Positions 340-522 of a stretch of 33,441 nt of DNA are shown here, piece after piece. The notes beneath the pieces are model-generated. The model had not been told where the DNA came from, ran no database searches, and was given only the letters and a program-made list of their open reading frames with translations. How positions within the stretch are numbered: the first letter of the stretch is position 1; each line of letters begins with the position of its first letter. The position numbers were made by a program, and so were the translations under genes. Source of the DNA: Gemmatimonadota bacterium (GTDB lineage Bacteria > Gemmatimonadota > Gemmatimonadetes > Palauibacterales > Palauibacteraceae). The stretch is taken from contig JAOTZH010000020.1 in the NCBI GenBank assembly GCA_029861425.1, forward strand, positions 1-33,441. The letters run 5' to 3'.

Positions 340-483
340 GATGCGAGGTCGCATTTCTTGAGCCAACACTTGCCCGTAGAGTCTTCGATCCGTCGGCGGA
401 CGTCATGCCCTGAATGGGAAGGCGAAGACCCGATGGTAGGAGGCGAACCTTTCGAGGTGGGCTTCAAGAAATCACCTCGCATC
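340..483 (+). ncRNA. Structured RNA upstream of folE (6S-like architecture or cis-regulatory leader)
   Basis: Hand folding gives a long closing helix. Bases 340-349 pair perfectly with 474-483 (10 bp). After a small internal loop, 353-361 pair with 464-472, and 362-364 with 460-462. Inside is an open region of about 16 bases on the 5' side, then an arm closed by 381-387 with 423-429 (7 bp) carrying a TCCG/CGGA tetraloop hairpin near 389-400. The 3' side of the bubble carries a small TTCG-capped hairpin near 447-459 and an AGGAGG at 438-443. A closing stem, central bubble with a small 3'-side hairpin, and terminal arm is the general plan of 6S RNA. Because an intrinsic terminator and the folE start follow directly, a folE attenuator or folate-type riboswitch is equally plausible. 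I cannot assign a family by sequence. Confidence 0.55.
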
Positions 484-496
484 TGCTTCTACAGGG

Positions 497-522
497 GGGG
501 TGACCTGCGGGTCGCCCCTTTT
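497..522 (+). terminator. Intrinsic terminator between the leader RNA and folE
   Basis: GGGGTGACC at 497-505 pairs with GGTCGCCCC at 510-518 (nine pairs, one of them G-U) across a short loop, and TTTT follows at 519-522. It ends only 5 bases before the folE Shine-Dalgarno (528-532), leaving no room for a separate folE promoter. Transcription of folE therefore has to pass this terminator or start upstream of it, which makes it a candidate control point. Confidence 0.65.

Follow-up and report, generated by a model that had tools for sequence, protein, structure and literature searches.

A divergent RNA upstream of folE is very probably the 6S RNA (ssrS) gene of a Gemmatimonadota bacterium

The window, which is the whole stretch of DNA that was analyzed (33,441 nucleotides), is one whole contig. 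Its genome is assigned to Gemmatimonadota on the strength of the closest named relatives of its FolE, which belong to that phylum. A folded RNA (approximately positions 336–522 of the + strand) lies immediately upstream of folE. The folE gene (540–1166, + strand) begins with a GTG start codon, is preceded by a Shine-Dalgarno sequence (AGGAG, 528–532) and encodes GTP cyclohydrolase I, as identified by TIGR00063 (257.3 bits; cut-off 181.6) and PF01227 (260 bits). In front of the RNA, a sigma-70 type promoter (300–328, + strand) is composed of a -35 element TTGCCG (300–305) and a -10 element TAACGT (323–328) separated by a spacer of 17, and its position would place the 5´ end of the RNA near 335–336. 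Behind the RNA, an intrinsic terminator (496–522, + strand) is formed by a 10-pair stem (496–505 with 510–519), a 4-base UGCG loop and T residues at 519–522 only. The T run ends 5 bases before the AGGAG and 17 bases before the folE start. Further downstream, behind folE, an ORF (1204–1836) resembles Trm112 at its N-terminus (27.5 bits; cut-off 77), and similar Trm112-like ORFs are also located behind the RNA or behind folE in many relatives.

The initial annotation of this DNA, which was made from the sequence alone, had described the promoter pair in front of the stem and the terminator ending five bases from the Shine-Dalgarno sequence of folE. Both can be read in the sequence as described, whereas a simple promoter and terminator scan of the window listed neither element. 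The promoter was missed because it matches the consensus at only 7/12 positions, and the terminator was missed because its T run is short, while the scan demands five T. The relatives support the promoter. Of the 23 family loci, 18 carry a TTG-type -35 element, a spacer of 17–18 and a -10 element ending 6–9 bases before the model start; the other five lack this arrangement. When 54 of the 67 RNAs of the largest alignment (A3, see below) were scanned, 31/54 upstream regions scored at least 8/12, compared with 7.1% of shuffled regions, the shuffles preserving base content only. A hairpin with a T run follows 49 of these 54 RNAs under a lax rule that was applied with no control, and the terminators of the relatives have longer T runs than that of the window.

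The region 330–530 folds with an energy of -98.2 kcal/mol (z -5.1), and none of 200 shuffled sequences folds as well. The RNA body (336–488, + strand) adopts a rod. The closing stem (5´ arm 340–349, 3´ arm 474–483) is an exact 10-bp complement, exactly the perfect stem that had been claimed. Above it, the inner stem pairs 353–364 with 460–472, and its 5´ arm contains most of the pRNA template. The central bubble has a 5´ side (365–380) and a 3´ side (445–459), in which ACCU..AGGU (447–458) is able, judging from the letters, to form the small hairpin that had been proposed there. The rod is completed by an apical arm (381–444; helices 4–7 of alignment A1) with a terminal hairpin GCCC...GGGA. 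The second helix and the terminal arm, both previously proposed, correspond to the inner stem and the apical arm, and the covariation seen among 15 relatives supports both.

On the basis of DNA similarity, the stretch is present in 27 of 60 genomes: its own, the 16 other genomes of the genus and 10 further genomes of the same family. Alignment A1 comprises 15 RNAs of the family and a 40-pair structure. Pairing in A1 is 93%, compared with 42–55% when the partners are slid, and double changes occur in 17 of the 40 pairs, a count that is reached by 0/500 shuffles. The closing stem (helix 1) shows changes on both sides in 5 of 9 pairs, its 3´ arm being supported by covariation as well as by exact complementarity, and in the inner stem (helix 2), the 3´ arm of which was likewise placed by A1, 96% of the cells are paired. 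In alignment A3 (67 rows, 66 of them distinct), double changes are found in 33/40 pairs, which again none of 500 shuffles reaches; since A3 was fitted to the structure, this count rests on a fitted alignment. An alternative alignment, A2, with 21 sequences, gave a less clean fold than A1 (26 pairs), since some of its rows seemed to have the 3´ arm in the wrong place; A1 served for the model. The closing stem, the central bubble and the apical arm of the 6S architecture are all present in the RNA, with covariation in their support.

At the Rfam cut-offs, cmscan of the window matched no family. In a permissive scan of 301 bases, the best-ranked family is RF00013 (6S), one of the two readings that the initial annotation had offered, with 22.4 bits (E 0.009) over 354–472. 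The score lies below the gathering cut-off of 46.4 bits, the window RNA being 24 bits short, and the match places the UGAGCC region in register. The gathering cut-off is a threshold of the model rather than a biological feature; the 22.4-bit match by itself is a lead, not proof. RF00013 has no match in the window's own genome at E≤0.001, reaches 10.6 bits on one relative (L003), and finds no 6S RNA in two other relatives (L017 and L057) at E≤10 or in a batch of 17 relatives' loci. Across 395 genomes of the phylum, RF00013 matched 38 at E≤1, only three of which exceed the cut-off, and 30 of these loci were fetched.

A model, R1, was built from the 15 RNAs of the window's family only, so that its test against the RF00013 matches is independent of Rfam. 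Of the 30 RF00013 loci that were fetched, R1 recovers 29, each with the same position and strand (28 with E-values of 3.3e-5 or lower, and L147 with 0.016). Two of the three loci over the Rfam cut-off (L139 and L140) are found by R1, and the third (L138) is missed. The score of R1 on the window RNA, 143.9 bits, is high by construction, as this RNA belongs to the training set. Among 38 further sources, which are part of the folE loci with those named as other phyla excluded, R1 matched 33, 8 of which are the training RNAs again, and it had no match in the remaining L045, L049, L062, L065 and L067. The recovery of the RF00013 loci indicates that the window RNA is a homolog of RNAs that the Rfam 6S model matches in other families, which supports the 6S-like reading of the initial annotation.

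A second model, R2, was trained on 67 of 68 sources (L140 fell out; the weakest row is L064 with 32.2 bits), and its training rows include loci first found with RF00013. R2 gives 125.9 bits for the window RNA (336–488). At E≤0.001, it has a match in 374 of the 395 phylum genomes, once in 360 and twice in 14, and no match in the other 21. In 6 kb of E. coli sequence around ssrS, the best match of R2 is ssrS (26.0 bits, E 4e-5; next best 9.5 bits), a result that is not independent of Rfam because of the RF00013-found loci in the training set. R1 does not single out ssrS in the same test (6.1 bits, rank 7), which means that the window RNA and E. coli ssrS are linked through intermediates. The locus missed by R1, L138 (G313:C266), is a strong RF00013 match (62.5 bits) and probably lies on a foreign contig in the bin, because R2 finds a match at another site of the same genome (G313:C376).

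The template core of the 67 aligned RNAs is UGAGCC in 63, UGACCC in two, and CGAGCC and UGAUCC in one each. Its CC, which corresponds to GG at pRNA positions 4/5, is found in 67/67 RNAs, and 65/67 have an A in the template behind the predicted start; these rows were picked by a model that itself includes the template core. The predicted pRNA of the window starts opposite C367, at the 5´ side of the central bubble, as placed by alignment with E. coli ssrS, for which we take the pRNA start to be U44. It would read 5´-GUUGGCUCAA..., with GG at 4/5 and AA at 9/10, and the predicted start GUUGGCUCAA of the window is replaced by AUCGGCUCAA in rows with GAGCCGAU. GG at pRNA positions 4/5 or 5/6 and an adenine before the start are described as shared hallmarks of 6S RNAs in passages of PMC8414754. 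The predicted pRNA region of the window appears to carry all these features, namely a template at the edge of the bubble, the GG position and the preceding adenine.

THF riboswitches and folate-linked cis elements would likewise precede folate genes, and the initial annotation had favored control of folE, by a THF-class riboswitch or an attenuator, over the 6S reading. The RNA would then be a cis-acting attenuator or a folate/pterin riboswitch terminating transcription ahead of folE or a queD-folE operon, as the short distance from the terminator to the folE start might suggest. No THF or other folate-linked riboswitch family matched the window RNA at either the gathering or the permissive threshold. 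The downstream genes were surveyed at 80 loci, with L138, duplicate loci and loci without a match excluded. In the other genera of the window's family, queD (PTPS, PF01242, shown for L027) and then folE lie behind the RNA in 15/15 loci, five of which were found via folE and ten via the RNA, and queD is also located downstream in 19 of 29 RF00013-linked loci. This recurrence fits control of a pterin operon, but queD thereby intervenes between the RNA and folE, and the other 10 of the 29 loci have neither queD nor folE downstream (nine were read for at least 990 bases and one for only 195). Within the window's genus, no queD was found in the flanks read. Of the 17 loci there, 8 have FolE behind the RNA and another 8 have a Trm112-like ORF but no FolE, and the contig of the remaining locus (L004) ends 52 bases past the RNA. 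FolE was not found in 9 of the 17 genomes, and the RNA is kept in all 17, including these nine. The two enzymes are exactly complementary in the genus: FolE is present in 8/17 genomes and FolE2 (PF02649, encoded elsewhere in the genome) in the other 9/17.

A ZapA ORF (PF05164, over its cut-off) ends 6–46 bases before the RNA in L139, L140, L141 and L147, which belong to three families other than that of the window (f4, f9 and f11). In E. coli, zapA lies just before ssrS and fau/ygfA lies downstream; passages of PMC4064990 and PMC9130861 describe the ssrS-ygfA linkage. At five loci (L148, L142, L144, L156 and L166), the RNA is present with no queD, FolE or Trm112 match in the flanks read. The RNA appears to be a gene in its own right, equipped with promoter and terminator signals and not bound to one downstream gene; no constant tie to a gene that it would regulate was found. 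Taken with the 6S pRNA-template core, these data make the attenuator or riboswitch highly improbable. It was rejected as the main reading on three grounds, the missing family match, the RNA in genomes where FolE was not found and the intervening queD; a dedicated folate-gene switch is not the best reading of this RNA.

An RNA of the Ms1 type would resemble 6S RNA and bind the polymerase core rather than the holoenzyme. Ms1 of Actinobacteria is structurally related to 6S RNA and is likewise a polymerase-binding RNA, according to passages of PMC9130861, which also give core polymerase as its partner; that study looked for Ms1 in Actinobacteria only, so that it is no direct test of this reading. 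On the model side, the comparison with Ms1 covered whatever Rfam includes. The conserved UGAGCC template core and the two homologs (L139 and L140) that exceed the RF00013 cut-off argue against such an RNA, which we regard as hardly credible here. A chance fold of leader DNA without RNA function, for which the GC-rich sequence, the mechanical ORFs overlapping the stretch on both strands and the weakness of single-sequence folding as evidence could be adduced, is next to inconceivable, as the covariation beats both slid and shuffled controls, the z value is -5.1 and matches extend throughout the phylum.

We conclude with a probability of roughly 93% that the element in front of folE is the ssrS (6S RNA) gene of this bacterium, in a divergent form. 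This reading is supported by the covarying structure, the homology to RF00013-matched RNAs, the promoter and terminator signals and the synteny. This divergent 6S RNA escapes the current Rfam model and was found in nearly all the sampled genomes of the phylum.

6S RNA is well known as a regulator of bacterial transcription. According to passages of PMC10406553, it sits on RNA polymerase as a mimic of an open promoter until the synthesis of pRNA releases it. For the window RNA, we infer transcription, polymerase binding, pRNA synthesis and read-through as follows. Its own sigma-70 type promoter would start a transcript of ~185 nt, which would take on the rod shape of 6S RNA, with its closing and inner stems, its central bubble and its apical arm, and stop at the intrinsic terminator. 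By homology, the RNA would mimic an open promoter and so occupy the housekeeping RNA polymerase during slow growth, and the polymerase would release it by copying it into pRNA from the start opposite C367. Some transcripts probably pass the terminator into folE, as in ssrS-ygfA elsewhere. Because the T run is so close to the folE start, folE itself is probably transcribed by read-through that begins at the 6S promoter or at a point farther upstream, unless the RNA gene contains a promoter. A more speculative and rather unlikely extension is that 6S RNA and the pterin/folate genes form one unit, in which read-through into folE or queD-folE would couple polymerase sequestration with the supply of pterins and one-carbon units, and which would have arisen independently of ssrS-ygfA of Proteobacteria.

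Like E. coli ssrS and RF00013, the window RNA has a rod built from a closing stem, a central bubble and an apical arm. It also shares with E. coli ssrS the UGAGCC template at the bubble edge, promoter and terminator signals of its own, an adjoining folate-pathway gene and, in some Gemmatimonadota families, an adjoining zapA. In contrast to E. coli, the downstream gene is folE or queD rather than fau/ygfA, and the predicted pRNA of the window starts with G, as opposed to A in the E. coli-like rows; the distance from RF00013 is that of the sub-threshold score given above. The 6S RNAs of B. subtilis and lactic acid bacteria have the same architecture, including a hairpin opposite the 5´ bulge, which is described for 6S RNAs in passages of PMC8414754. 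The same passages place the pRNA GG of lactic acid bacteria at 5/6, whereas it is at 4/5 in the Gram-negatives cited there, as in the window.

The literature searched contained no report of a 6S RNA in Gemmatimonadota; the surveys Wehner 2014 and Barrick 2005 could contain one. With the RNA described here, a phylum whose 6S RNA the reference model largely overlooks (RF00013 matches in 38/395 genomes, 3 over the cut-off, versus 374/395 for R2) gains a defined and testable 6S gene. That 6S RNA again lies beside pterin/folate genes, and here beside genes other than ygfA, makes the long-standing question of the 6S-folate linkage accessible to comparative tests.

Two 6S-like RNAs are present in 7 of the 15 genomes of family f8. 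No tRNA was found behind the second copy at three of these seven loci (L218, L222 and L228). At the other four, all in genus g20 (L224, L227, L223 and L226, in G210, G307, G330 and G388), a tRNA-Met(CAT) lies 5–11 bases behind the second copy, and from this spacing the two look as if they formed one precursor.
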